From Candidatus Melainabacteria bacterium RIFCSPHIGHO2_02_FULL_34_12 (GTDB taxonomy: Bacteria > Cyanobacteriota > Vampirovibrionia > 2-02-FULL-35-15), in contig MFRM01000013.1 of NCBI GenBank assembly GCA_001784555.1, positions 1-64,000 on the forward strand: a DNA stretch of 64,000 bases, in the 5' to 3' direction. The stretch's first letter is position 1. Each line of letters opens with the position of its first letter. This document shows positions 5,016-43,136 of the stretch, piece by piece. The notes beneath the pieces were generated by a model. The model made no database searches, was not told where the DNA came from, and worked only from the letters and a program-made list of their open reading frames with translations. Both the position numbers and the translations under genes were made by a program.

Positions 5016-6356
5016 TCATTTTGTTCTGCATGCAGCTAACATTCCAGCAGCCTCACCCATAGCCCAGCAATTAGCCTGAATTCGAGCAGAACCTTGTGCT
5101 TCAAAAGTAGCTGAGAGACAGCGTCCTGCCACAATTAAATTTTTAATTTCATCTTCTTTTGGAAGAAGCGAACGAAGAGGGATTTGATAATAATCTCCAT
5201 GAGGGGGTTTTCCTGTCATCGCCCCATTGCCGTCTCGCCGTCTCGCCGTCTCGTGTATATCTATAGGCCAATTTGAATTTGCAACTGCATCATCAAATTT
5301 TTTCCCGCTTAATACATCTTCTGCATTTAAAATATACTGCCCAATTAAACGCCTGGATTCTCTTACTCCTATTAACGGAGCAATCTGGCTAACATAAGAT
5401 TTTTTAAATCCCGGAAGATATTTTTTACAGAAATTACTTATTCTTTTTATCATTTGTCTTCCATGTACAAGCAGCCACGATGTATCATCGTTATTTAAAG
5501 GATCCAGAGCTTTATTTTCAGGGGTTATTCTAGGGCAGTTAAATGCTACAAATCCAGGTGATCCTGGTACTGAAAAGATCTGGAAATATGCAGCATCTTC
5601 TTTTGTCAGATCTCCTTTTTTTAAAGCCTCATCAAAAAATGGTTTTAATGTCCAGCTTTTTTCATAGGTATAAGCTGATGACAGTAAAATATCTCCGTTT
5701 TCCAGAAAATATACCGGTGAGTCACCTGATTTGTCGTTTTTTTGAAGCCATGAAGCAAATTCATTTAAATCTACTCCGCTCATCATAAAACGAAGTGACA
5801 TTGCTTGTTTTTCTTTTGCTTCGTAACTTACTCCTGATAAGTGTATTAAGTCACCGTCGCCAGTCGTATCAATGAACTCTTTTGCACTTATTGAAAATAT
5901 GCCACCCTTATTAAACATAAAAACTTTTTGAACTTTTTTATTTTCAACTTCACAGGAAATAATTTGATTATCAAACATTATTTTTACGCCGGCGTCTGAA
6001 CATATTTCATCCAGAACCCATTTATAAATCTCAGGATTAAACCAGCCGGGGTTCCCATCATTGAAAGTAGCTCCACCACCAGCTTTTACAAGCCTGTCAC
6101 ACACTTCTAGAAATACCCCTTTTGTTAAAGTGTTTTTTGCGTCCAGTGCATTTTTCATCATCGGTGTGACAAGAGCACCAGTTGCCATTCCGCCGAGAAA
6201 TGTAGCTTTTTCGATTAATACAGTTTTTGCACCTGAACGTGCTGCAGAAACTGCAGCTGCTACACCTGCTGAGCCGCCACCAGCTACGAGGACATCATAA
6301 GGGGGTAATTCTTTATAATTCAGCTCTAGTTTTGACATATTTTTGGGCAGACACAT
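5016..6356 (-). CDS. FAD-dependent oxidoreductase (FAD_oxidored family)
   Basis: 446 residues. The N-terminal Rossmann motif VLVAGGGSAGVAAA (about residues 25-38) binds the FAD ADP moiety, followed by the acidic-end strand TVLIEKA. GDGD at about 166 and a C-terminal GRCLSATFEAQGSAR block fit the PF12831-type family, whose substrates are often unknown. Start: ATG at 6356 has AAGGGC upstream, but both lie inside a palindromic repeat; ATG at 6338 (MSKLELNY) is the alternative without a clear binding site. An octamer tandem repeat at 5229-5252 inserts ETARRRDG-type sequence. It lies 16 bases after tatD and is probably co-transcribed. Confidence 0.85.
   Translation of the reverse strand: MCLPKNMSKLELNYKELPPYDVLVAGGGSAGVAAAVSAARSGAKTVLIEKATFLGGMATGALVTPMMKNALDAKNTLTKGVFLEVCDRLVKAGGGATFNDGNPGWFNPEIYKWVLDEICSDAGVKIMFDNQIISCEVENKKVQKVFMFNKGGIFSISAKEFIDTTGDGDLIHLSGVSYEAKEKQAMSLRFMMSGVDLNEFASWLQKNDKSGDSPVYFLENGDILLSSAYTYEKSWTLKPFFDEALKKGDLTKEDAAYFQIFSVPGSPGFVAFNCPRITPENKALDPLNNDDTSWLLVHGRQMIKRISNFCKKYLPGFKKSYVSQIAPLIGVRESRRLIGQYILNAEDVLSGKKFDDAVANSNWPIDIHETARRRDGNGAMTGKPPHGDYYQIPLRSLLPKEDEIKNLIVAGRCLSATFEAQGSARIQANCWAMGEAAGMLAACRTK
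5229..5252. repeat. Octanucleotide tandem repeat (three copies) inside a gene
   Basis: GCCGTCTC occurs three times in a row (GAGACGGC on the coding strand). Twenty-four bases equal eight codons, so the frame is kept. The segment is much more GC-rich than its surroundings. The coding-strand octamer GGCGAGAC resembles the GGCGAnnC units in the phosphohexomutase gene at 23919-23965. Confidence 0.85.
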
Positions 6357-30962: not shown

Positions 30963-33900
30963 CTATCTTTCTGAATTAACAGCAAACTTTTTATAAACCA
31001 CAGGTATAACTAAAAGTGTAAGAGCAGTTGCACTAAACATGCCTCCAAGAATTACTATTGCAAGAGGGTGTTCTATTTCTCTACCTGCACCAGGAAAAAG
31101 TGCAAGTGGAAGCATTGCAAATGCAGCAGTTAAAGCAGTCATCATTATCGGTGCAAGTCTATCCATTGCTCCTTTTTTAATAACTTCATCAATTGGCATT
31201 TTTGGATTTTCTTTTTGAATATCAAAGAACCTGTTTACAAGTAGTATTGAGTTTCTGGTGGATAAACCAAACAAAGTTATAAACCCAACTACGCTTGCAA
31301 TACTTAAAACGCCCCCAAACATTGAAATTGCCAACACTCCACCAATAAGTGCTAGTGGCAGATTAATCATAATTATTGTTGCAACTTTAAATGATTTAAA
31401 AGCAAGTGAAAGTAACATATATATTGCAGCTAAGACAAGAATACTAAGTAAAAATAGTTTTTTATTTGCTTCTTGCTGTTGTTTGTAATCTCCTTCAAAC
31501 TCAAGAGTGTAACCTTCTGGAAGTTTAAGTTTTTCACTAATTAGCTTCTGAGCCTTTTCAACAGATTTTGAGATATCTTGTTTTTTTGCATTTGCCTGGA
31601 CTACAATTCTTCTTGAAACTTTTTCCCTGTTTATAATATTGGGTCCAACTGACTCTACTACATCAGCTAATTGCCCAAGTGGTATTTTTACACCCATTGG
31701 AGTGTCAATCAACGTATTTTTTATTACAGAAAGATTTTTTCTATATGGTTTATCAAACCATATTAATAAGTCAAAAGATTTTTGTCCTTCAATTACTCTT
31801 TGTGAGGTTGTAATACCATTAAAACCAGTTTGGATTACTTCAAGTAAATCCCCTGTTCTAAGTCCATATCTTGCTGCAACATTTTTTCTAATTTTTATAT
31901 GTATTTGAGGGATGTTTGTAATCGGTTCTATTTGTACTTCTTCTAAGGTGTCTATTTTAGATAAAATGCCTGCAATCTTAGCAGCATATCTTTGAAGTGT
32001 ATCTAAATCATTTCCATAAAGTTTTAAAACTATTGGTGCTCTTTGACCAGTTACAACTTGTTCTATTGTTTCAGTAATAAATGACCTGATTAATGTAACT
32101 AGTCCTGGGATTTGTTCAAAATCTTCCCTTATATCTTCAACCAATCTCTCTGTTTCATTTTGAGAAATACCAGGTTTCAAAGTAATATCAAAATGGCTTG
32201 TATTTGCTGAAATTGGTTCATCATCTGATTCAGACCTACCAGCCCTATTTCCAACAGTTACTATTTCCGGATATTTATGTAATTTCTTCTCCATTCTAAG
32301 AGCAATTTTTTGTGTAGCTTTTAGACTAGTACCTGGTGGAGCAATAGCCATAACAATCAGGTTTTCTTCCCCAAGCTCAGGCAGAAATGACCTTCCCATT
32401 GTGAAAAATATAACAAGTGCAATCAGCGAAAGAATTATAGTGCTTGTAAAAACCTGTTTAGGTTTATTTAAAACCTGGTCAAGTAGTTTTGAATATTTTT
32501 CTTTTAAAAAAGTAATTATTTTAGGTTCATGATCAACAAGATTTTCGTTTTTTGATAGCATATAAAAACACATTGCAGGAGTTAAAGTTAATGCAATTCC
32601 AAGCGAAGCAAAAAGAGAAATAATATAAGACCAGGCAAGTGGTTTAAATATCTGACCTGCAATGCCTGTAAGAGATAAAACAGGAAGAAAGACTACAGTA
32701 ATAATATAAGTCCCATACACAACTGAGTTTCTTACTTCACACGAAGCGTTAAATATAACTTCAAATACTGGCTTTGGGTTTGAACTCAATTTATTTTGTC
32801 TAAGCCTTTTATAGATGTTTTCCACATCAATAATTGCATCATCTACTATTTCTCCAACTGCAACTGCTAAGCCCCCAAGTGTCATTGAGTTTATTGTTTG
32901 ACCACATGCTTTTAAAACTAATATTGCAACTATAAGTGAAAGTGGAATGGCAGTTAAGCTAATAAAACTTGTTCTCCAGTTACCTAAGAATAAAAGTAAA
33001 ATAATAATTACTAAAATTGAGCCTTCAAAAATTGCAGAGACTATATTTTTAATTGAGGTATCTATAAAATCAGACTGACTGTATGTTTGTGTAATTTTTA
33101 CATCTTCTGGTAATGCCTTTTTTATAATTCCAAGGGCTTCCTGAATGCCTTTATTTACTTCAAGTGTGTTTACCCCAGGCTGTCTACTTACAGCTACAAT
33201 AACAGCTTCTTTTCCATCTACACTGCCGTAACTTCTTTTAAAAGCTGCTCCAATTTTTACATTTGCAATATCCTTCAAGTAAATTGGTATACCTTCTTTT
33301 TGAGCTATTACAGAGCTAGCAAGTTCTTCTATGGATTGAACCTTACCAATCCCTCTTATTAGGTATTCTCTATCATCTTCAAGCAAATACCCACCGCCAA
33401 CTATTACATTTGCTTTTTGGGCAGCTTCTATTACCTGATTTAATCCAATGTTGTATTGCCTTAGTTTATTTGGATTTACCAGGACTTGGTATTGCTTTAA
33501 GTCTCCACCATAAACCAAAACTTTAGCTACACCTGATACTGACAAGAGTTTATTTCTAATTTCCCAGTCAGCATAGGTTCTTAAATCTATAAGAGGTGTG
33601 ATTTTGCTTGTAAGAGCAAAGAAATAAATGCTTCCTATTGGTGAAGTTATAGGAGATAAGATAGGTGCATTAATACTTTTGGGGAAAAGTTGTGATGCCT
33701 GCTGTGTTTTTTCAGCAACTAGTTGTCTTGCTCTAAAAATATCAGTACCCCATTCAAATACAACAGTTACAAATGAAAGCCCTTCAAATGAGTTACTTCT
33801 TACAACTTGGATTTTAGGAAGCCCGTTTAATGCACTTTCAAGTGGAATTGTAACAAGTGCTTCTACTTCTTCTGCTGCAAGACCTGGTGCTTGTGTCTGA

Positions 33901-34046
33901 ATTACTACTTGTGGCGGTGCAAACTCAGGTAAAACATCTACTGGAGTATTTACTGCTGAATAAGTACCAGAAATAAATAAAATAATCCCAAGAACAATTA
34001 CTAAAAGCCTATTATTTAAAGACCACTTGATTATTTTACTTACCAT
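30963..34046 (-). CDS. Heavy-metal efflux RND transporter (CusA/CzcA family)
   Basis: 1027 residues, full length. The N-terminal helix and NTPVDVLPEFAPPQVVIQTQAPG are typical of HME-RND pumps; the TM4 motif reads AVGEIVDDAIIDVENI, with the acidic residues of the proton relay. Two large periplasmic loops and about 12 helices. It extrudes metal cations (copper/silver or zinc/cobalt/cadmium type) across both membranes with an adaptor and an outer-membrane channel, both encoded directly upstream. The csoR gene at the operon head favours copper, but the ion cannot be fixed from this sequence alone. Confidence 0.93.
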   Translation of the reverse strand: MVSKIIKWSLNNRLLVIVLGIILFISGTYSAVNTPVDVLPEFAPPQVVIQTQAPGLAAEEVEALVTIPLESALNGLPKIQVVRSNSFEGLSFVTVVFEWGTDIFRARQLVAEKTQQASQLFPKSINAPILSPITSPIGSIYFFALTSKITPLIDLRTYADWEIRNKLLSVSGVAKVLVYGGDLKQYQVLVNPNKLRQYNIGLNQVIEAAQKANVIVGGGYLLEDDREYLIRGIGKVQSIEELASSVIAQKEGIPIYLKDIANVKIGAAFKRSYGSVDGKEAVIVAVSRQPGVNTLEVNKGIQEALGIIKKALPEDVKITQTYSQSDFIDTSIKNIVSAIFEGSILVIIILLLFLGNWRTSFISLTAIPLSLIVAILVLKACGQTINSMTLGGLAVAVGEIVDDAIIDVENIYKRLRQNKLSSNPKPVFEVIFNASCEVRNSVVYGTYIITVVFLPVLSLTGIAGQIFKPLAWSYIISLFASLGIALTLTPAMCFYMLSKNENLVDHEPKIITFLKEKYSKLLDQVLNKPKQVFTSTIILSLIALVIFFTMGRSFLPELGEENLIVMAIAPPGTSLKATQKIALRMEKKLHKYPEIVTVGNRAGRSESDDEPISANTSHFDITLKPGISQNETERLVEDIREDFEQIPGLVTLIRSFITETIEQVVTGQRAPIVLKLYGNDLDTLQRYAAKIAGILSKIDTLEEVQIEPITNIPQIHIKIRKNVAARYGLRTGDLLEVIQTGFNGITTSQRVIEGQKSFDLLIWFDKPYRKNLSVIKNTLIDTPMGVKIPLGQLADVVESVGPNIINREKVSRRIVVQANAKKQDISKSVEKAQKLISEKLKLPEGYTLEFEGDYKQQQEANKKLFLLSILVLAAIYMLLSLAFKSFKVATIIMINLPLALIGGVLAISMFGGVLSIASVVGFITLFGLSTRNSILLVNRFFDIQKENPKMPIDEVIKKGAMDRLAPIMMTALTAAFAMLPLALFPGAGREIEHPLAIVILGGMFSATALTLLVIPVVYKKFAVNSER

Positions 34047-34049
34047 GAA

Positions 34050-35372
34050 TTAGCTTTTTGATTTCCTTTTTCCTAAAATAAATCCTAAGATTAAAGTTAC
34101 TAAAAGACCAATTGGGATTAACCAAATTGGGTAAATAGGTTCTCTTTTAACATGCTCATGGTTTTCACTTTCAGCCTCGTGACTATGTTCATCTTCGCTA
34201 TCAGAATGTTTATGACCAGCACTTGTTTTGTCATGTCCATGCTCGTCTTCGTCATGTCCACCTTCTCCAAACTGAAGCTGATAAGCCCCTTTTGTAACTA
34301 TAATCTCACCAGCCATAAGTCCTGAAATAACTTCTACTGTATCAGAATCATGTGCTTCAACTTCAATCTTTCGTGGAATAAATGAACCACCTTTTTTTAA
34401 ATAAACAATGTGTTTATGTTTTCCTTCAGTACCTTCCTTATCAATTTCAACAAGTGCAGTTCTTGGAATTACAATGGAGTTTTTCTTTTTTCCTGTAGAT
34501 ATATGGAGTTGAATAAATGCACCGGGACTTAAGATATTTTCTTTGTTATCAAGTAATGCTTTTACAGGCAGTGTTCTTGTTTCACTTTGTATTACTGACC
34601 CAATATATGAAATATTTCCAGTAAAAGTTTTATCTGGAATACCATCTACAAATACAATTGCTTTTTGATTTTGACTAACTTTAGTTCTGTCTCTTTCATA
34701 GATATCTGCACTAGCCCAGACTTTTGTCAGGTCGTAGCCGTGAAATAATCTTTGATTTTCATTTATAATTTGACCAACAGTTATATCTCTTTCGACAATT
34801 GTTCCAGCTTTAGGCGCTCTAATAGTAAAAGTACCTTCTTCTGCTTCTCCATTTTGACCAGTTAATATTTTCAAATTATTTTTTGCTGCCTTTGCTTTTG
34901 CTTCTGTACTTAGATAAAAAGCCTTTGCAGCATCTAAGTCTTTTTTTGCACTTATTCCTTTTCCAAACAACTTTTCCTCTCTATCAAAATTATTTTTTGC
35001 AAGTTCTAACTCTGCTTCTGACTGGTCAAGTTCAGATTGAAGTTTCGCTATATCTGTGCTTTGAATAACTGCAAGCGATTGACCAGCATTAACCATAGTT
35101 CCTAAGTCAACAAGCACAGAGATTACTTTACCTTGAACAGGTGAGTTTACATCAAAATGGCTGCTTGGTAATTCTTCGATTTGACCAGTCGTTCTTACTG
35201 CATCATCAACTGTTTCTTCTTTTACTTCTTTTGTTTCAATTCCAGTACCTTTAACATCTACCTTTTCCACTGGTATTTTTTCAAACTTTGCTTTAAATCC
35301 TATATCATCTCCATGTGCTAAAGAGGGTAAAAATGAAAGAGCAAAAAGAGCCAGCAAAAGATATTTCTTCAT
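34050..35372 (-). CDS. RND periplasmic adaptor with His-rich tail and C-terminal membrane helix
   Basis: 440 residues. Signal peptide at 1-21. Lipoyl/barrel-sandwich half-motifs flank a coiled-coil hairpin (about 110-165), then beta-barrel segments as in CusB/CzcB. The C-terminus is unusual: a His/Asp/Glu-rich stretch (about 374-410) is followed by a hydrophobic helix at about 417-435 and a KRKSKS stop-transfer tail. The His-rich part probably binds metal and the extra helix would anchor the adaptor in the inner membrane. It overlaps the channel gene by 4 bases. Confidence 0.9.
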   Translation of the reverse strand: MKKYLLLALFALSFLPSLAHGDDIGFKAKFEKIPVEKVDVKGTGIETKEVKEETVDDAVRTTGQIEELPSSHFDVNSPVQGKVISVLVDLGTMVNAGQSLAVIQSTDIAKLQSELDQSEAELELAKNNFDREEKLFGKGISAKKDLDAAKAFYLSTEAKAKAAKNNLKILTGQNGEAEEGTFTIRAPKAGTIVERDITVGQIINENQRLFHGYDLTKVWASADIYERDRTKVSQNQKAIVFVDGIPDKTFTGNISYIGSVIQSETRTLPVKALLDNKENILSPGAFIQLHISTGKKKNSIVIPRTALVEIDKEGTEGKHKHIVYLKKGGSFIPRKIEVEAHDSDTVEVISGLMAGEIIVTKGAYQLQFGEGGHDEDEHGHDKTSAGHKHSDSEDEHSHEAESENHEHVKREPIYPIWLIPIGLLVTLILGFILGKRKSKS

Positions 35373-36637
35373 AGTTCTTCTCCAAACTCATACAATGTTA
35401 CACCAACAGCATATTCCAGTTCTGCAACAGCTACTCGATAACCAAGAAGGCTTTCAAGATATGATTCAGTTATATATCTGTTTTGCTGTTCTGTATTCAA
35501 AACATCAGTTAAGGATAATTTACCTAATTTATATCCTTCTTTTGTCATATCCAGGATATTTTCTGAATCATCAATTAGTCCACTTTGAAACCTGTGAACC
35601 TGCTCCTCCTTTACTTCAAGCTCATGAAATGCATTTGCAACTTCAATTTTTATGTCGTGCTCAATTCTTTCCCTTTCCTTTTCCAGATAACCAACGTGTG
35701 CTTTTGCTTCACTAATTTCTCCCTGTTTTCTGTTAAATACAGGTATTTGAAATGAACCACCAATGAACGGACCCCACCTATTATTTCCCTGACTTGGTCT
35801 TACGGGTCCTCCTACAATATTGAGATTTGGCAAACGTTCCCATCTTGCCTTTTTAATTTTTGCCTCAGCAATCCCAAATTCTTTCTCAAGGATTGCAATA
35901 TCAATTCTTTTATCAAGAGCTCTATCAATTATTTCTTTTACCTCAGGATGCTCGTGTAATTTTATTTTTGGTTTCAACTCCGCAACTACTGGTGATAAAA
36001 GTTCAGAATCAGGATCTCTGCCTAAAATATGATTGAATTCAATTTTTGCTTTTTGCAGCCTGCCCTCGAATTCACTTAACTGGTTTTGAGCTTTAAGATA
36101 TTCTGCTTTTGTTCTTATAAGATCAAGTCTGGAAATATCACCTGCATCATATCTCTTCTCTGCTACATCCAGTAATGTTTTATAAAAATCAGACCTTTCT
36201 TTTGCTAAATCAAGAATCTGAAGACCTACCGACAACTGTGCATATGCAGCATGAACCTCGGTATGGATTTCCCATAAAGTTTTTCTTACTTCAAGTTCAT
36301 CCTTAGAAATCTCCTCTTTTGCAAGCTTTATCCTCCAGTATCTTTTTCTTCCAACTTCGATCTCACTGCCTAATTCAATAGCATGGAAAGAACCACCTTT
36401 TACAATTTCAGCATTTGAACCAATAAAAGGATTTGGTCTGTATTTTGCAAAAATAAGTTTTGCCTGAGAAACAGGCAAAGTAGCAAGGGCAGATTTAACA
36501 TGGTGATTATTTTCCATGGCTTGTGTCAGAGCATCTTTTAAAGTTAATGTTTTTTCACTTGATGCCTGCACGAAAATATTTTGCCAAAAAGCAAAAAAGA
36601 AAATTAAAAAAATAAAAATAATTCTAAATGTAAACAT
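35369..36637 (-). CDS. TolC-family outer-membrane channel (CusC/CzcC type)
   Basis: 422 residues from ATG 36637, which places a signal peptide (about 1-24, ending in VQA) at the N-terminus; the frame is open back to 36703. Two OEP repeats, each with long helices, begin at LTLKDALTQAMENNHHV and near KLHEHPEVKEIIDRAL. NRKQGEISEAKAHVGYLEKERERIEHDIK is typical of TolC proteins. It forms the outer-membrane exit duct of the metal pump. It overlaps the adaptor gene by 4 bases (ATGA type). Confidence 0.9.
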   Translation of the reverse strand: MFTFRIIFIFLIFFFAFWQNIFVQASSEKTLTLKDALTQAMENNHHVKSALATLPVSQAKLIFAKYRPNPFIGSNAEIVKGGSFHAIELGSEIEVGRKRYWRIKLAKEEISKDELEVRKTLWEIHTEVHAAYAQLSVGLQILDLAKERSDFYKTLLDVAEKRYDAGDISRLDLIRTKAEYLKAQNQLSEFEGRLQKAKIEFNHILGRDPDSELLSPVVAELKPKIKLHEHPEVKEIIDRALDKRIDIAILEKEFGIAEAKIKKARWERLPNLNIVGGPVRPSQGNNRWGPFIGGSFQIPVFNRKQGEISEAKAHVGYLEKERERIEHDIKIEVANAFHELEVKEEQVHRFQSGLIDDSENILDMTKEGYKLGKLSLTDVLNTEQQNRYITESYLESLLGYRVAVAELEYAVGVTLYEFGEEL

Positions 36638-36686
36638 GCCCTTAAAATGACGAAAGATAAGTGTTTCGGTTCTGGGAGTATATCTT

Positions 36687-37631
36687 TTATCCGCCAAGAG
36701 CAATAGCAGCTGATTCAGATGCAGCTTCTGCTACACAAACCGGAGCACCACAACAGGCACATACTGCTCCTTCAGTTCTCATTGCAAGTGATTCGTCTTC
36801 ACTAACGGCATTAAAGTACAAAAAAGCTTTATCAACTAAATGACCAAGCCCTACAAAACCTAAACTTAGCCCAAGAATCTGCAAAGCAGAAATTCCAATA
36901 TTACCGAAAAATCTTTTTACAGAGAAGTCCAATGAACTGTTTAGTTCTCTTAATTTATTCAGAGGTAAATTTAAGAGTGCTGGAACAGTATTAATCAGGA
37001 TTTGTAGCTTTGCAAGTTTAAGTGATTCACTTTTATTTATACTGAATCTTGATTTTAAGGAATTATGATCATCATGTTCAGTGTAATCATGGTCTTCATG
37101 AGCACATTTTTCAGTATGGACATGCTTTCCGTTTTTCTCAATAAAAAATACTGCAAGTGCCATAAGCGGTCTTATTAGTACACGCGGTAAATTTGCAAAC
37201 TTTTGAGCTGATATTACAGCCAGAGAACTTAAGCAGGTAAAAAATAATTTCAATGGATTTTTAAAACCTCTGTTTGTCAGGTGCATAGCAACTATTGACA
37301 TAGGAGAAGCTATTAAAGAATCAGTATGAAAAGGTTTGTTTACTTCAGACATAAGAAGTGCAGGAGTAAGATTACTAGCCATAAGTAATAATTGTTTAGT
37401 CGTAGAGTTAACTTTCAGTTCTTTTATAGTATCTTCAAGCGGAAATAATCCTTCAAGAAAATCTCTTACGCAATTAAGGCATCCCCATTCAGTAGTATGG
37501 TTATGCTCTGCTTCAACTTTACAAGTAGGAACTGGACAATCACCGTCATGTTCATCGTGATGAGGACCGACACCACCAGATAAAGCAGGTGATGTAACTG
37601 ACGGTTTATATTGTGCAATAGCTGTTGGCAT
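36687..37631 (-). CDS. His/Cys-rich membrane protein of the metal-efflux operon
   Basis: About 314 residues from ATG 37631 (GAGG 4 bases upstream; an upstream TTG is possible). The N-terminus has PHHDEHDGDCPVPTC and CLNC. A central His-rich loop (HVHTEKCAHEDHDYTEHDDH) lies between hydrophobic segments, and the C-terminus ends with CACCGAPVC and a Gly/Ala tail. Several hydrophobic segments suggest a membrane protein. No family is recognised. Three separate metal-ligand clusters, and its position between csoR and the channel gene, suggest metal delivery or sensing for the pump; that role is inference. Confidence 0.75.
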   Translation of the reverse strand: MPTAIAQYKPSVTSPALSGGVGPHHDEHDGDCPVPTCKVEAEHNHTTEWGCLNCVRDFLEGLFPLEDTIKELKVNSTTKQLLLMASNLTPALLMSEVNKPFHTDSLIASPMSIVAMHLTNRGFKNPLKLFFTCLSSLAVISAQKFANLPRVLIRPLMALAVFFIEKNGKHVHTEKCAHEDHDYTEHDDHNSLKSRFSINKSESLKLAKLQILINTVPALLNLPLNKLRELNSSLDFSVKRFFGNIGISALQILGLSLGFVGLGHLVDKAFLYFNAVSEDESLAMRTEGAVCACCGAPVCVAEAASESAAIALGG

Positions 37632-37668
37632 TTTCCTCAAATCAATATATCACAATAACAAAGGCGCT

Positions 37669-37947
37669 TTACTTTTTAGGATTGTGTTTTATTGTTTCCA
37701 TAACTTCTTTTATAAGCTTCTGACCGGAACCTTTTTTTATAGCATGGCTTACACATGTTGCTAGATGATCCTCTAGGATAATTTCTGTAAGCTTATTTAA
37801 AGCTGACTGTACGGCCTGTATTTGTTTTACTATATCAATGCAATATTTATCTTCCTCGATCATCTTACTTATACCGTGCAGATGTCCTGAAACATAAGAC
37901 ATTCTTTTTAATACTTCTTTTTTAACTTTTGGATTTTGATGAAGCAT
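37669..37947 (-). CDS. csoR: CsoR-family metal-sensing repressor
   Basis: 92 residues, all-helical DUF156 fold. The Cu(I) ligand set of CsoR appears at Cys36, His61 and Cys65, the spacing known for M. tuberculosis CsoR. It is therefore the Cu-type (x-C-H-C) rather than formaldehyde (FrmR) or nickel (RcnR) pattern. Upon metal binding, CsoR releases C/G-tract operators. Such an operator lies at 38048-38072 and a near-copy at 42178-42203. It heads the efflux operon and is divergent from two small Cys-rich genes. Confidence 0.93.
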   Translation of the reverse strand: MLHQNPKVKKEVLKRMSYVSGHLHGISKMIEEDKYCIDIVKQIQAVQSALNKLTEIILEDHLATCVSHAIKKGSGQKLIKEVMETIKHNPKK

Positions 37948-38047: not shown

Positions 38048-38075
38048 ATACCCCCCAGGAAGGGGTGGGTATAAT
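38048..38075 (+). promoter_or_regulatory. CsoR-type operator overlapping a -10 box
   Basis: ATACCC-N13-GGGTAT with C/G tracts inside matches the character of known CsoR operators. The right arm runs into a perfect TATAAT (38070-38075), so bound repressor would cover the promoter. The start codon of the first Cys-rich gene is only 18 bases after the -10 box, implying a leader of about 12 bases. Confidence 0.7.
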
Positions 38076-38093: not shown

Positions 38094-38342
38094 ATGATGA
38101 GATTCTATTTTTCACTTATTGTTTTATTTGTCTTTGGCCTAAACACTTCTATGGCAGCATTTGCATGCGGATGTGGATGTAAAGATAAAAACTGTGGTGC
38201 TAAAGCAGAAGCACCCATTAAAGAAAAGCTTTATTGTGAAGAAACGAAAAAGATAATAGTAGCTCAAACAATTAATAGTATTGAAAATGGAGCACTGGAT
38301 TCAGATGGTTGTAAAGGTAATTGTAATAATGGAGGAAAATAA
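38094..38342 (+). CDS. Small secreted Cys-rich protein (82 aa)
   Basis: 82 residues. Signal peptide at about 1-22. The mature part starts with FACGCGCKDKNCG, has YCEETKK in the middle and ends with a second cluster GCKGNCNNGGK: eight Cys in about 60 residues. It lies directly behind the CsoR-type operator and probably binds metal outside the cytoplasm. A GGAGG near its end serves the next small gene. No known family recognised. Confidence 0.8.
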   Translation: MMRFYFSLIVLFVFGLNTSMAAFACGCGCKDKNCGAKAEAPIKEKLYCEETKKIIVAQTINSIENGALDSDGCKGNCNNGGK

Positions 38343-38344
38343 AT

Positions 38345-38476
38345 ATGAAAAAGGTAGTTTTATCATTGGTTGCAGGCATATTAATAGGTGTAAGTGGATT
38401 TGCAGTTGCAGGTCATTTTATGAATTGCAAATGCGGTACATTATGTGCATGTAATCCATGTCATTGCAATAAATAA
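38345..38476 (+). CDS. Metallothionein-like secreted peptide (43 aa)
   Basis: ATG 38345 with GGAGG 9 bases upstream, 2 bases after the preceding stop. The signal peptide ends at GFAVA. The mature peptide of about 21 residues has six Cys in C-x-C-x3-C-x-C-x2-C-x-C spacing (NCKCGTLCACNPCHCNK). The same spacing occurs in the peptide at 42268-42393. This density is typical of metallothionein-like Cu(I) or Zn binding, but such proteins are normally cytoplasmic. Not a recognised family. Confidence 0.75.
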   Translation: MKKVVLSLVAGILIGVSGFAVAGHFMNCKCGTLCACNPCHCNK

Positions 38477-38478
38477 TT

Positions 38479-38504
38479 GTAGGGGCGTAGGGTGCTACGC
38501 CTAC
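38479..38504. repeat. GTAGGGGC-type palindromic repeat, copy 6
   Basis: GTAGGGGCGTAG and CTACGCCTAC face each other around GGTG (one unpaired base). It sits immediately after the small Cys-rich peptide gene. It could stop transcription by forming a hairpin, but no T-tract follows. Confidence 0.75.
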
Positions 38505-38545
38505 AGTGAAAATGTAATAGAATTATTCTAGAAAGATTTAATTCT

Positions 38546-38962
38546 ATGAAATCATATACTGAGTATCTGACATTTAATACAAAAAAACGAAGAGAATATA
38601 TAAACATTACTCCACGGGTTGAAGAAGCCGTAAGGAAGTCAGGAGTAAAAGAAGGACTTGTTCTGGTTAATCCTATGCATATAACAGCAAGCTGTTATAT
38701 AAACGATGATGAGGAAGGATTAATAAATGATTTTGATGAGTTCTTAGAAAAAATTGCACCGTATGATTTAAAAAAATACCGTCATCATCAAACAGGCGAA
38801 GATAATGGCGACTCACATTTAAAAAGACAATTGTTTGGAAGAGAAGTAGTAGTTGCAATTACTGACGGCAAGCTTGATTTTGGTACATGGGAACAAATAT
38901 TTTATGCTGAGTTTGACGGAAAACGAAACAAACGAGTCTTAGTTAAGATTATTGGGGAATAA
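38546..38962 (+). CDS. YjbQ family (secondary thiamine-phosphate synthase / UPF0047)
   Basis: 138 residues, the full length of the family. Conserved features include [64 protein letters not shown], with a conserved His cluster. The E. coli homolog YjbQ has weak thiamine-phosphate synthase activity; the real role is unclear. The last 18 codons are present a second time at 39091-39147 with only silent changes. Confidence 0.92.
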
Positions 38963-38995
38963 ATAATCTACTTGGTTTATCAGAAACTAATAAAG

Positions 38996-39080
38996 TGAGG
39001 CTGGAACTGATTTATTTAGTCCAGCCGAACAGTCTATGCAAAGCCGGTTCGAGGAGCTACGTCACCGCAGAACCGGCGGC
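38996..39080. repeat. GC-rich double-hairpin element between duplicated gene ends
   Basis: Two inverted repeats lie in tandem: GAGGCTGGA...TCCAGCC (about 38997-39026) and GCCGGTTC...GAACCGGC (39043-39077). The core includes GAGGAGCTACGTCACCGCAG, similar in style to the cores of the other MITE-like elements. It separates the two copies of the yjbQ 3' end. Confidence 0.55.
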
Positions 39081-39090
39081 AATAAAAAAC

Positions 39091-39147
39091 GCTGAGTTTG
39101 ACGGAAAACGAAATAAGAGGGTGTTAGTTAAAATTATTGGGGAATGA
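39091..39147 (+). pseudogene. Second copy of the yjbQ 3' end (18 codons and stop)
   Basis: Fifty-seven bases that translate to the same 18 residues as the end of the intact gene ([18 protein letters not shown]), followed by TGA instead of TAA. It differs from 38906-38962 at seven bases; all coding differences are synonymous. No start or upstream coding sequence is attached, so it is a remnant. Confidence 0.85.
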
Positions 39148-39354
39148 TTTTAAGCAATACATAATTAAAGCTATTATTTCCTTAATCAAGTTACAAAAAA
39201 TTTTTATCTTTTCTAATTTTATTAAAAAAAGACTCAATAGGAAAACCATTAAATGTAAAATATTCCTAAGTTTTTAAAACAGTCACCAAACCGGTCAGAG
39301 TTTATATTTACCTGGCAGGAAAAGAAAACTAAATAAAATACAAGGGCCCAAAGT

Positions 39355-41430
39355 ATGGTTGCAGAAACCTTAGATATATATAACAAATCCAAAGAAGATC
39401 TTATTAGGGAATTGAAAATTCTCAGAGCACAGCTTGCTGTTATTAAAGAAATAAAATCCTCTGAGGAAATGTATAAAAAGTTAATAGATAATGCAAATGA
39501 TGCCATATTCCTGGCAGATGCAGAAACAGGAATTATTATTGATGCAAATAAAAAAGCTGAAAATCTAATCGGGTTACCTCTTGAAAAAATAATAGGCTTA
39601 CATCAATCAGCCCTTCATCCAAAAGAAGAAGCAGAAAAATATAAAAAAATGTTTTCAGAAGATGTTGAACGAGGTCATGGAATTACACCGCATGAAATAT
39701 TTATCTGTAATAATGAAGGCAGAAATATTCCTGTAGAAATAAGCGCAAGTGTCTTAGAAATTAAGGATAAGAAAGTTATTCAGGGAATATTCAGGGATTT
39801 AAGAAGATGGAAACAAGCAGAAACTTCACAATCACAGCTTGCAGCAATCGTAGAACACTCTGCTGATGGAATAATTGGCACAAGCCCGGAAGGTATTATT
39901 TTTAGCTGGAACCCGGGAGCAGAAAAAATATACGGTTATTCTGCAAATGAAGTTTTAGGAAAATCTGTCATTGACATTTTTGTGCCTGAAAATCATAAAG
40001 AAATTCTTGAAAAAATAGAAAAAATTAAAAACATAAAAAGAACTGAACACTATGAAGCATTAAGAACAAGGAAAGACGGCAAACAAATTTATATCTCTGT
40101 AGAGATTGCTCCAATATTAGACAAAGATGGGAATTGTACTGGTACTTCTTCAGTAGTAAGAGATATAACAGAACGAAAACTTACAGATGAGGCATATTAT
40201 GAAACCCAAAGAAAACTTACTACCTTGATAAATCATTTACCAGGATTTGCGTATCGTTGTGCAAATGATCGCAACTGGACAATGGAATTTTTAAATGATG
40301 GATTTTTTGAGCTTACTGGTTATAAACCAGAGGAAGTAATAAATAATAAATTACTATCATTTAATTCATTAATTATGCCGGAAGATAGAGAGTATATCTG
40401 GAGTGCTATTCAAAAATCAGTTTCAAAAAAACTGCCGTTTACAATTGAATATAGGATTAAAACAAAAGATGGAAAAATAAAATGGATTTGGGAAAGAGGT
40501 AGTGCAGTACTTGATTCTAATAATAATGTAATTGCACTTGAAGGTTTTGATTTTGATATTACTGAACGTAAAGAAGCAGAAGAAAAGCTTAATCAATTTG
40601 CATCTCTTGTAAATGCTTCAAATGATGCAATTATTGGAGAATTGTCGGATGGAACAATTATAAGCTGGAATCCTGCAGCAGAAAAAATATATGGATATCA
40701 AGAAGATGAGATTATTGGAAGACATTATTCAGTGTTTGTTCCACCAGAAGACAGAGATGCAATACTGGAAATTAAGGAAAAAATTAAAAATGGAGAAAAT
40801 ATAAGACATTATGAAACAATGCGTTTTAGAAAAGATGGTTCTACCGTATTTGTTTCGATGAATATTTCTCCGGTAAAAAATACAAAAGGAGAAATAATAG
40901 GACTTTCTGCAGTTGTACGGGATATAACTGATAAACTAAAACTTGAAGCAGAGCTTGAAAAAGCCAGAAAAAAAGAGCAGCAAGAAAAAGAAATAAAATC
41001 TCTTGAAGAGCTTGTAAGACCTGTTAAATCAAAAGATATTACATCACAATTATTTGGACTTATTCCATTGGAAAAATCAGTTCCTGGTATTTTTAATCAG
41101 ATTGTTAAAAGATATGAAAATCTTGTCCAAAAGGCTGTCCTGGAAAATGATGAATCAAATAAGCAATATATTTCAGAAGAATTAAAATTTATAAGTGATG
41201 AATTGTTCAGCTTAAAAGCAGGTCCGGCAGATATAATGGAAATACAGAGTCAAGTCTTAAAGAATAATAATAAAATTGATCCTTTAAGAGGAGATATTTT
41301 AACTGAAAAATCACGATTTATGATAATTGAACTTATGGGATATCTTGTTAATCATTACCGCAAACAGTTTCTTATAACAAGAGATCCGACACAAATGAAA
41401 ATATTAAAAAATGCATATTTAAATGAATGA
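39355..41430 (+). CDS. Multi-PAS sensor protein without kinase domain
   Basis: 691 residues, no membrane span. After a short coiled coil there are four PAS/PAC units (about 40-150, 155-275, 280-400 and 405-530), each with signatures such as DANDAIF, GRNIPVE and ITERK. The C-terminal 150 residues are helical (EKSVPGIFNQIVKRYENLVQKAVLEND...IMEIQSQVL...GYLVNHYRK) and look like the four-helix RsbU N-terminal or KaiA-like interaction domain; this is a resemblance seen by eye. No HisKA, HATPase or GGDEF is present, so output must be via a partner. It overlaps the MEDS-protein gene by 8 bases. Confidence 0.8.
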   Translation: MVAETLDIYNKSKEDLIRELKILRAQLAVIKEIKSSEEMYKKLIDNANDAIFLADAETGIIIDANKKAENLIGLPLEKIIGLHQSALHPKEEAEKYKKMFSEDVERGHGITPHEIFICNNEGRNIPVEISASVLEIKDKKVIQGIFRDLRRWKQAETSQSQLAAIVEHSADGIIGTSPEGIIFSWNPGAEKIYGYSANEVLGKSVIDIFVPENHKEILEKIEKIKNIKRTEHYEALRTRKDGKQIYISVEIAPILDKDGNCTGTSSVVRDITERKLTDEAYYETQRKLTTLINHLPGFAYRCANDRNWTMEFLNDGFFELTGYKPEEVINNKLLSFNSLIMPEDREYIWSAIQKSVSKKLPFTIEYRIKTKDGKIKWIWERGSAVLDSNNNVIALEGFDFDITERKEAEEKLNQFASLVNASNDAIIGELSDGTIISWNPAAEKIYGYQEDEIIGRHYSVFVPPEDRDAILEIKEKIKNGENIRHYETMRFRKDGSTVFVSMNISPVKNTKGEIIGLSAVVRDITDKLKLEAELEKARKKEQQEKEIKSLEELVRPVKSKDITSQLFGLIPLEKSVPGIFNQIVKRYENLVQKAVLENDESNKQYISEELKFISDELFSLKAGPADIMEIQSQVLKNNNKIDPLRGDILTEKSRFMIIELMGYLVNHYRKQFLITRDPTQMKILKNAYLNE

Positions 41431-41995
41431 AGTTCAACAAAATTTAACCATACAAGAATGTAATCTTCATGATCACACATACATGACTTATACTAATCAA
41501 AATGAATTTTTTCATTGTGCAATTCCTTTTTTAAATGAAGGCATTAAAAAAAATGAAAAGTGTCTTATTGTAATAGATCTTATAAAACGAGAAGATGTTT
41601 TAAGAAATTTCAAATTTCTTTTTAGAGACGGAATAAATCCTTTTGAAGAAATGGGCCATTCCAAAAGAATCCAAATCGAACAATTTAAAGATATTTATCT
41701 TGTCGGGGGTAGTTTTAATCCAACTAAAACTTTAGAAATATATTTAGCATTCTTAAATAATGCAATTCTTGAAGCCTATAAAGGCTTAAGAGTATTTGCT
41801 GAAATATCTTCTTCTACTAAAAAATATATTCCGGCAGAAGATTTTTTAAACTGGGAAGAAGAAGCAAATAATCATTTTGATAATAAATTTCTTGCAGTAT
41901 GTGCTTATGATTCAAATTATTTTGACAGCAGTTTTCTGACCAGCGTTAATAAAAGGCATCCCATAAAAATAAATGTCTTAAAAACAAGACTTTAA
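41423..41995 (+). CDS. MEDS-domain protein
   Basis: 190 residues. HTYMTYTNQNEFFHCAIPFLNEGIKKNEKCLIV followed by LRVFAEIS and the LNWEEEAN segment fit the MEDS (methanogen/methylotroph DcmR sensory) domain, a KaiC/RecA-related fold often lacking ATPase motifs. No HTH or kinase is attached. It overlaps the multi-PAS gene by 8 bases, which indicates co-translation and a joint signalling role. The ligand is unknown. Confidence 0.8.
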   Translation: MNEVQQNLTIQECNLHDHTYMTYTNQNEFFHCAIPFLNEGIKKNEKCLIVIDLIKREDVLRNFKFLFRDGINPFEEMGHSKRIQIEQFKDIYLVGGSFNPTKTLEIYLAFLNNAILEAYKGLRVFAEISSSTKKYIPAEDFLNWEEEANNHFDNKFLAVCAYDSNYFDSSFLTSVNKRHPIKINVLKTRL

Positions 41996-42002
41996 GTTTA
42001 TA

Positions 42003-42111
42003 AGGACTTACGCAAAGTTCACTGGGTATGGTACCCATTCGCTCCTTTCCCGCCCTAAAGGGCACACGTCGCTCAGGGCACCATACCGCAGTTCATTTTT
42101 GCGTAAGTCCT
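42003..42111. mobile_element. MITE-like element with 14-bp terminal inverted repeats
   Basis: AGGACTTACGCAAA and TTTGCGTAAGTCCT bound 109 bases; the inverted homology continues imperfectly inward (GTTCACTGGGTATGGT against ACCATACCGCAGTTCA). The core is GC-rich with no gene. Ends of the AGGACTTACGCA type are familiar from cyanobacterial insertion elements; I state this from memory and could not check it. Confidence 0.7.
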
Positions 42112-42177
42112 GTTTATATAAAAATTAATTAAAAACATTAATAATTCGCCCGATTTTATGCTGTTTTTATCATTTTA

Positions 42178-42206
42178 ATACCCATACCGGGGGGGTAGGG
42201 TATAAT
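42178..42206 (+). promoter_or_regulatory. Second CsoR-type operator overlapping a -10 box
   Basis: ATACCC-N14-GGGTAT with an inner TACC/GGTA pair, running into TATAAT at 42201-42206. The layout is the same as at 38048-38075 apart from one spacer base. It lies 62 bases upstream of the 41-residue Cys-rich peptide gene. No csoR is adjacent, so the repressor at 37.7 kb would act in trans. Confidence 0.7.
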
Positions 42207-42267
42207 ACTATTAACCCTGCCATAAATCTCATGTGTTAGGTTTAGGGCAGAAAAAAAGGAGGCATAA

Positions 42268-42393
42268 ATGAAAAATCTAATGTTAACTTTAGTGATTGCT
42301 CTGGGCCTTACTGCAGGTGGATTAGCACTGGCAAATAGTCTAAATTGTCCTTGCGGATCTACATGCACCTGTAGTCCTTGTAATTGCAAGTAA
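42268..42393 (+). CDS. Metallothionein-like secreted peptide (41 aa), paralog
   Basis: ATG 42268 with a perfect AAGGAGG 5 bases upstream. Signal peptide ends near LALAN. The mature part NCPCGSTCTCSPCNCK has six Cys in the same C-x-C-x3-C-x-C-x2-C-x-C spacing as the peptide at 38345. It is preceded by a CsoR-type promoter and followed by a strong terminator, so it is an autonomous, probably highly expressed single-gene unit. Confidence 0.8.
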   Translation: MKNLMLTLVIALGLTAGGLALANSLNCPCGSTCTCSPCNCK

Positions 42394-42400
42394 CTTAATG

Positions 42401-42430
42401 AGAGGCGGTCAAAAAACCGCCTCTTTTTTT
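42401..42430 (+). terminator. Rho-independent terminator
   Basis: A perfect 9-bp stem (AGAGGCGGT / ACCGCCTCT), 6-base loop and a following run of six T. It sits 8 bases after the stop of the 41-residue peptide. It also overlaps the end of the convergent outer-membrane protein gene. Confidence 0.92.
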
Positions 42431-43136
42431 ATTTATTCTGAACTAATGTAGGCAAACTATAATTAAGATAGAAAATTATAAAATGATTTAGTGTTTCAGT
42501 TGCAGGTCCAGGAAAATGTCGATGTTGCAATTGGTATCCTAAATCTGCACTAATATTTTCATTCAACCTGCGATTTATTCCAGCATAAATACGATTTTGG
42601 TTAATGCCAGCCTTCGGTCCATCGTTAGGAGAGTTGAAATTTATAAGTAACTCATCAAATAAAACAAGTGACCACTTTTTATTTTTATCTAATGGATAGG
42701 TTCCTTTAAGTCTGTATCTTCCTCGAAGTGAAACACCATCGACCCCTTGTAAAAATCTTTCTTCAAATCTAATTCTATGTTGAAATTGTAATTTATCTAC
42801 TTCATGAGAAATTATTGCTTCCTGATAAGGTCTTTGCTCTCTTGTAAAGTTCGGTATATAAAGTGTATTCCAAGCATAGCCTTGGTAGAAAGAAAAATAT
42901 TCATTAAACTTATATCCCAACAAACCATGCAACCCAAGTTCATTAAAGTCAGTAGCATTATCAAGCAATCTTGGAATAATGTGAAATCTTGTTTGTACTT
43001 TTTCTGTTATTGGGGCATAAAAATTAATTTCAGTCCACGAACCAAAATCATTTGCAAATGTATCTTTTGCACAAGCAGAGTTTAGATTCCACAAGGACAG
43101 AATTAAAATAACAATCTGTAAGAGAAGATTTTTCAT
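42429..43136 (-). CDS. DUF2490 outer-membrane beta-barrel protein
   Basis: 235 residues. Signal peptide at 1-23 (ending SACA). The mature part consists of alternating beta-strands with DFGSWTEINFYAPITEKVQTRFHIIPRLL, FSFYQGYAWN, QFQHRIRFEERF and a C-terminal aromatic strand (IIFYLNYSLP), the pattern of DUF2490 barrel proteins. Role unknown; such proteins are assumed to sit in the outer membrane. Convergent with the small Cys-rich peptide gene across its terminator. Confidence 0.85.
   Translation of the reverse strand: MKNLLLQIVILILSLWNLNSACAKDTFANDFGSWTEINFYAPITEKVQTRFHIIPRLLDNATDFNELGLHGLLGYKFNEYFSFYQGYAWNTLYIPNFTREQRPYQEAIISHEVDKLQFQHRIRFEERFLQGVDGVSLRGRYRLKGTYPLDKNKKWSLVLFDELLINFNSPNDGPKAGINQNRIYAGINRRLNENISADLGYQLQHRHFPGPATETLNHFIIFYLNYSLPTLVQNK

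Follow-up and report, generated by a model that had tools for sequence, protein, structure and literature searches.

Two putatively exported, metallothionein-like peptides and candidate CsoR-type operators beside a Cus-type efflux operon in a non-photosynthetic relative of cyanobacteria

The metallothioneins known from bacteria are, to our knowledge, cytosolic, and the exported copper stores of which we know are folded four-helix proteins. SmtA has no signal peptide, adopts a zinc-finger fold and carries a Cys/His pattern other than that described below, while MymT of Mycobacterium tuberculosis is an intracellular protein with neither an export signal nor a link to a Cus RND operon. CusF, which works with the CusCBA pump, has an OB fold and a site made up of Met, His and Trp. 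In M. tuberculosis, the copper metallothionein MymT belongs to the regulon of RicR, a CsoR paralogue (PMC10470581). Csp1 represents another solution, being an exported copper store that forms a folded four-helix bundle and carries a Tat signal (PMC7558416). Among plant metallothioneins, the gamma-domain of wheat Ec-1 can bind Cu(I) instead of Zn (PMC4813231). The type 2 operators recognised by CsoR proteins combine a TAC/GTA dyad with paired G/C tracts and a TAC-X9-GTA spacing, and in M. tuberculosis the TAC-GTA spacing reaches up to 22 bp (PMC3902906).

A locus that invites comparison with these systems occurs in the window, that is, the whole 64,000-nucleotide stretch of DNA analysed, which derives from a little-studied non-photosynthetic relative of cyanobacteria. 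Its features are as follows.

30963..34046, minus strand: CusA/CzcA-family heavy-metal RND transporter (TIGR00914, 812 bits, cut-off 701)
34050..35372, minus strand: CusB-like membrane fusion protein (PF16576, E 7.9e-36)
35369..36703, minus strand: OEP outer-membrane efflux protein, CusC-like (PF02321, E 8.5e-49)
36687..37640, minus strand: u317, a His/Cys-rich predicted membrane protein of no Pfam family, conserved beside peptides/csoR in relatives
37669..37947, minus strand: csoR, 92 aa (PF02583, E 6.4e-27, 94 bits against a cut-off of 22.8)
38049..38071, plus strand: putative CsoR-type operator of cys82-MT1, the G-tract pseudopalindrome TACCCCCCAGGAAGGGGTGGGTA in the divergent csoR/cys82 intergenic region
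38094..38342, plus strand: cys82, an 82-aa, putatively secreted Cys-rich protein with a predicted signal peptide and a CGCGC...NCG motif, first gene of a dicistron
38345..38476, plus strand: MT1 (peptide 1), 43 aa, predicted signal peptide MKKVVLSLVAGILIGVSGFAVA followed by the predicted mature six-Cys tail GHFMNCKCGTLCACNPCHCNK
38546..38962, plus strand: UPF0047 protein, downstream of MT1, a neighbour kept in four relatives
42179..42202, plus strand: putative CsoR-type operator of MT2, the G-tract pseudopalindrome TACCCATACCGGGGGGGTAGGGTA
42268..42393, plus strand: MT2 (peptide 2), 41 aa, predicted signal peptide MKNLMLTLVIALGLTAGGLALA followed by the predicted mature six-Cys tail NSLNCPCGSTCTCSPCNCK; a single-gene unit with its own putative operator and terminator
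42400..42432, plus strand: intrinsic terminator after MT2, a 10-bp stem (42400-42425) followed by a T-run

The full precursors (MT1, MKKVVLSLVAGILIGVSGFAVAGHFMNCKCGTLCACNPCHCNK; MT2, MKNLMLTLVIALGLTAGGLALANSLNCPCGSTCTCSPCNCK) both open with a lysine-rich start and a hydrophobic core (15-residue hydropathy 2.2-2.4), after which comes an AVA or ALA site; these AxA-type cleavage sites were read manually. The putative export signal is followed in each by the tail C-x-C-G-x2-C-x-C-x-P-C-x-C, in which six cysteines form three C-x-C pairs within 15-16 residues. The mature part comprises about 20 residues, and neither peptide has a twin-arginine. Both are small, very rich in cysteines arranged in C-x-C clusters and poor in aromatic residues, as are metallothioneins in the functional sense. 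The strict tail pattern has exactly two matches in the 2.11-Mb genome, MT1 and MT2. For the looser spacing pattern, the window has two matches and 100 dinucleotide shuffles of it have none. A lipoprotein reading was rejected, lipobox-like LSGC and ISGC sequences being present only in the homologous loci L111 and L116 and absent from the window peptides.

Most of what the preliminary description had reported of this arrangement was recovered: the two ORFs of 43 and 41 aa, each with a ribosome-binding site (GGAGG in the present reading) and a putative N-terminal export signal; the identical mature spacing C-x-C-x3-C-x-C-x2-C-x-C, including G after the second cysteine and P before the fifth; the pair of near-identical operators; the terminator behind the second peptide; and the csoR gene heading an RND efflux operon. 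Its placement of both peptides behind operator/promoters holds directly for MT2, but MT1 is a second gene, lying behind the overlooked 82-aa ORF. MT1 starts 2 nt past the cys82 stop, and the two genes form a dicistron. Besides its own predicted signal peptide, cys82 contains the motif ACGCGCKDKNCG and is homologous to an exported CGCGC-YHS protein that adjoins the peptide in L031 (tblastn E 3.7e-6). The YHS domain of the L031 protein is recognised with E 2.6e-12, and the YHS half of cys82 is degenerate in the window. The UPF0047 gene is probably a syntenic anchor and not part of the function; its final ~56 bases (38907-38962) recur in diverged form at 39092-39147, a duplication remnant. Upstream of the MT2 operator, an inverted repeat (AGGACTTACGCAAA...TTTGCGTAAGTCCT, 42005-42115) has the look of a MITE, a small mobile element.

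The genes csoR, u317, OEP, CusB and CusA form an operon headed by csoR, the sole CsoR-family gene detected in the genome. The closest solved structure is M. tuberculosis CsoR (2HH7, E 6.9e-21), and alignment to 2HH7 and 4M1P shows that the Cu(I)-ligand positions, Cys and His-x3-Cys, are kept in the window protein (KYCID, EDHLATC). Among the NCBIfam copper-sensor models, RicR scores best, with 74 bits against a cut-off of 175. Within the operon, u317 is a candidate new metal-handling component. Neither CusF, nor a CopA-type/P1B ATPase, nor VKOR was found in the genome, a lack that is suggestive; completeness is put at about 95%, which leaves room for CopA or CusF among the genes not recovered. 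The sole P-type ATPase match to the heavy-metal model was set aside, as it is under the cut-off and follows a KdpA-like ORF, which identifies it as KdpB-like. Given the absence of P1B ATPase and CusF from the genes found, envelope handling would be the only recognised copper defence.

Upstream of both peptide units lies a G-tract site of the form TACCC...GGGTATAAT, which overlaps a TATAAT hexamer (38070-38075 at the first site, 42201-42206 at the MT2 site), a position that fits repression. The pattern TACCCN{10,16}GGGTATA is found in the 2.1-Mb genome only at 38049 and 42179. Eleven sites from 7 genomes align as ATACCC-n-GGGGT-n-GGGTATAATA, all of them upstream of units encoding the peptide or its secreted Cys-rich/YHS partner. 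Across 11 genomes of the window's taxonomic family, every pattern match with a G/C run of at least five belongs to a peptide/csoR locus, and so does the pair in G008:C73, whereas the scattered remaining matches are without a G/C run of five. A TAC/GTA dyad around two G/C tracts is present in both window sites and in most sites of the relatives; the outer TAC-GTA distance in the window sites is 17-18 bp, as against the 9 bp of the type 2 CsoR operator. From these sites we infer that CsoR binds and controls both peptide units.

The same set of 11 genomes, which appear to be Caenarcaniphilales-type Melainabacteria, was used to define the peptide family. A search of relatives for the conserved cysteine spacing had been set beforehand as a check on the preliminary description, and it yielded homologues, many of them near csoR: 19 family peptides in 9 of the 11 genomes, with the six cysteines conserved (a further anchored variant, L109 4401-4556, was left out of the 19). 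Six of the peptides, both window peptides included, have CxCGxxCxCxPCxC; three keep the spacing with other residues (L111, L116, L117); five are membrane-anchored, with seven cysteines in the form CxCxxxCxCxxCxCC; and another five carry the shorter CxCxxCxCxxCxC, a sub-family that adjoins csoR. Searched against 386 genomes of the phylum, the family profile has no matches beyond this one taxonomic family. The peptides are under purifying selection, dN/dS between orthologues being 0.06-0.32, with dS saturated in some of the comparisons. They match no NCBIfam model, and annotation pipelines are therefore likely to overlook them. No plasmid relative was found.

Linkage to the sensor and the pump recurs in these relatives. 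All seven csoR-bearing genomes (G000, G001, G002, G003, G004, G006, G009) have a family peptide near csoR. The distance is 0.2-0.5 kb in five loci (the window, L117, L132, L133, L134), and peptides of the anchored type lie 1-3.1 kb from csoR in L110, L113 and L115. Genomes G005 and G007 contain neither csoR nor peptide; G008 and G010 (79% and 86% complete) have peptides without a detected csoR, and G008 carries the operators. The gene order of L134, csoR | cys82-peptide-UPF0047, is that of the window, and L117 and L132 keep the order without the middle gene. In L109, L111, L118 and L132, OEP-CusB-CusA genes adjoin the peptides. In L110, the anchored seven-Cys peptide is next to a 112-aa, 17-Cys DUF326-repeat protein (5301-5639, minus strand; PF03860, E 2.7e-7), which the Csp1 model matched weakly and which may be a Csp-like copper storage protein.

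Other copies are wired differently. In three relatives' genomes, the peptide gene and a gene of the MerR family are transcribed divergently (L118 4094-4495; L109 5189-5614; L112 4182-4607; L119 3415-3840), the MerR-family genes being 85-88% identical to the L119 copy. One cysteine of the encoded regulator aligns with the sensor-region Cys of PbrR/MerR, and its C-terminus reads CC...H....C; all NCBIfam equivalogs are under cut-off, and the metal is not named by them. The MerR-linked promoters contain a 22-bp palindrome (ACTCTAAAGCTAGCTTTAGAGT in L071) inside a TTGACT-20-bp spacing, and a palindrome in a 20-bp-spaced promoter is the layout of MerR-type activators. The same export peptide would therefore stand under two unrelated metal sensors, which points to an exchange of sensors within a single peptide family, and copper exclusivity is accordingly not a property of the family. 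A FUR-family gene, possibly Zur-like, was also observed in L116 (~5300-5900), flanked on one side by a peptide gene paired with that of a secreted Cys-rich protein and on the other by a homologue of u317.

A scan of 84,980 species for the exact pattern gave 75 matched stretches, most of which were discarded as chance frames in GC-rich DNA; exported single-domain peptides like MT1 and MT2 were only L023, L031, L039 and L071. The loose-spacing search over the class was usable within the family only, being swamped elsewhere by TGT repeats. The same six-Cys module is part of metallothionein-like proteins that lack an export signal (L019, L022, L030, L042, L051, L074). In Acidobacteria it is joined by a second Cys cluster in exported proteins (L034, L043), of which L034 exceeds the Pfam Metallothio_2 cut-off (23.8 vs 23). 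An exported protein of the latter build was seen in L035, possibly from Phycisphaerales. The L023 peptide of Bdellovibrionales (MRRFSHVLTMLFGLALPAIGLSAGLCPCGEDCPCDPCPCHTDS, ~5106-5237, minus strand) is possibly an independent exported mini-metallothionein, and the ORF after it has, by eye, the look of an ECF sigma factor. Two further observations were made: in L061 (~1340-1684; record title, Neisseria gonorrhoeae DSM 9188), the six-Cys tail is part of the frame of a glycine-rich, bacteriocin-like precursor with a GG leader, and in L120 (4610-5242, genome G209, same class), a 210-aa protein with a signal-like N-terminus carries the six-Cys spacing twice (CNCKEDCKCEDCKC, CNCGEDCKCEDCKC).

Taken together, MT1 and MT2 are probably exported, single-domain metallothionein-type buffers of the envelope that share one small copper regulon, made up of cys82-MT1, MT2 and csoR-u317-OEP-CusB-CusA. 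In the proposed mechanism, apo-CsoR would sit on the G-tract operator overlapping the -10 hexamer and repress transcription; as Cu(I) rises, Cu(I)-CsoR would leave the operator, and the two peptide units would be expressed together with the pump operon. The precursors would exit via Sec and be cleaved after AVA/ALA, and the mature ~20-residue tails, with their three C-x-C pairs, could capture periplasmic Cu(I), which they would probably bind in a small cluster of the Cu(I)-thiolate kind. By holding Cu(I), the peptides would lower its free level in the envelope, and they may take the part of CusF by passing it to the CusBA(OEP) pump. Export, cleavage, metal binding, the choice of metal, CsoR control and hand-off to the pump are all predicted from sequence. 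The chief difficulty is that the six thiols would have to stay reduced in the envelope, where they could oxidise to disulfides; rapid metallation would protect them. Further points count against this explanation: CsoR senses cytosolic Cu, whereas the regulon acts in the envelope, and the operator spacing is unlike the classical TAC-X9-GTA. The preliminary proposal of an exported metallothionein-like peptide under CsoR is well supported by the conserved family, the conserved operator and the csoR/Cus linkage across genera, but must accommodate variable spacing and the copies wired to MerR.

The metal and the role of the peptides can each be read in another way. The peptides might be general soft-metal sponges of the envelope (Zn/Cd/Pb as well as Cu), the CsoR wiring being a local choice and copper not the main ligand. 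Such a function would suit the MerR-type regulators of L118, L109, L112 and L119, with their conserved Cys of Zn/Cd/Pb/Hg sensors, the FUR-family neighbour in L116 and the closest profile, that of a plant Zn metallothionein; copies behind MerR-type divalent-sensor regulators imply that Cu may not be the sole ligand. This account is nevertheless less likely than copper buffering, as in the window and in all seven csoR-bearing genomes a peptide lies near a Cu-type CsoR, often with a CusA-type pump, and both window operators are the only ones of their genome. Copper buffering under CsoR is also to be set against a pure chaperone role, in which the peptides would substitute for CusF at the Cus pump instead of serving as a store or buffer. 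Storage and chaperoning cannot be separated by sequence, and few ions would fit on a single domain of such small size; the missing CusF and the peptides encoded with OEP-CusB-CusA in several genomes likewise speak for a chaperone. We nonetheless regard an exclusive chaperone role as unlikely, since the genes of MT2 and several homologues lie apart from those of the pump, no pump is encoded near the MerR-linked copies of L112 and L119, and the peptides bear no sequence likeness to CusF.

Readings that dispense with metal altogether fare worse than envelope buffering does. An export signal, six cysteines and a normally oxidising envelope would also befit a disulfide-stabilised secreted peptide with an antimicrobial, signalling or redox role that is copper-induced by chance. 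Three C-x-C pairs, however, ill suit an ordinary disulfide core and are characteristic of thiolate clusters, VKOR was not found in the genome, membrane-anchored seven-Cys versions exist and the operon partners are metal proteins, which together make such a peptide highly improbable. That the small ORFs are chance frames, or their spacing a coincidence, has next to no credibility: the ORFs are tiny, and in large collections most such pattern matches are chance frames or TGT repeats, but the restriction of profile matches to one taxonomic family, the dN/dS values, the six cysteines kept in 19 peptides, and the presence of RBS, operator and terminator already contradict it.

A broader picture is offered tentatively. 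A diderm lineage without a copper P-type ATPase or CusF might confine its copper management to the envelope, where exported one-domain metallothioneins of a new class (mature part ~20 residues) would serve as both sponge and shuttle for a Cus-type pump; in evolution, control of the peptide would have shifted between the copper sensor CsoR and a divalent-metal sensor of MerR type, and the peptide would have taken cleaved and membrane-anchored forms. If true, metallothionein chemistry would be at work in the bacterial envelope, and the peptides would be among the smallest natural metallothioneins. The family would also provide a natural series (cleaved or anchored, x3 or x2 spacing, CsoR- or MerR-controlled) in which to ask whether sensor or peptide sets the metal.

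The tail CxCGxxCxCxPCxC is nearly identical to the motif of plant metallothioneins, and Ec-1 TTCGCGEHCGCNPCACG aligns with it gap-free; the plant proteins, in contrast, have two domains and are not exported in this manner. Against PF01439 (plant type 2 metallothionein), MT1 and MT2 score 22.9 and 22.0 bits, below the cut-off of 23.0, in a match (E 1.6e-4) that covers only the last 17-19 profile positions. Instead of two domains and a spacer, the peptides have the C-terminal motif only, their N-terminus being a hydrophobic export signal. The match to wheat Ec-1 (2KAK, PF02068) in the PDB profile search was weak (E 0.0019), and FXYD matches in that search were dismissed as matches to the hydrophobic segment. 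As these scores rest mainly on cysteines, convergence is a safer reading than homology and is likely the source of the resemblance.

With SmtA/BmtA, the peptides share small size, richness in cysteine and metal-responsive regulation, and PF02069, the model of that type, gave no match to them up to E = 1. The likeness to CusF with CusCBA lies in small size, a periplasmic location and co-operation with a pump of CusA type, the last two being predicted for the peptides. Csp1 resembles the predicted role of the peptides as an exported, Cys-rich copper store, but differs by its four-helix bundle and Tat export from a short mature tail that lacks the twin-arginine. In RicR-MymT, a Cu(I) sensor of the CsoR family de-represses a small Cys-rich peptide (PMC10470581), a form of control that is predicted here. 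The system had earlier been called possibly undescribed, and that view can be kept in part: no description of a natural exported or periplasmic bacterial metallothionein, including a one-domain form, was found in the literature consulted, which lay mostly outside subscription papers, but CsoR-family control of a metallothionein is already known from RicR-MymT. What would be new in the present locus is the exported one-domain form, its restriction to one lineage and the swapping of sensors.
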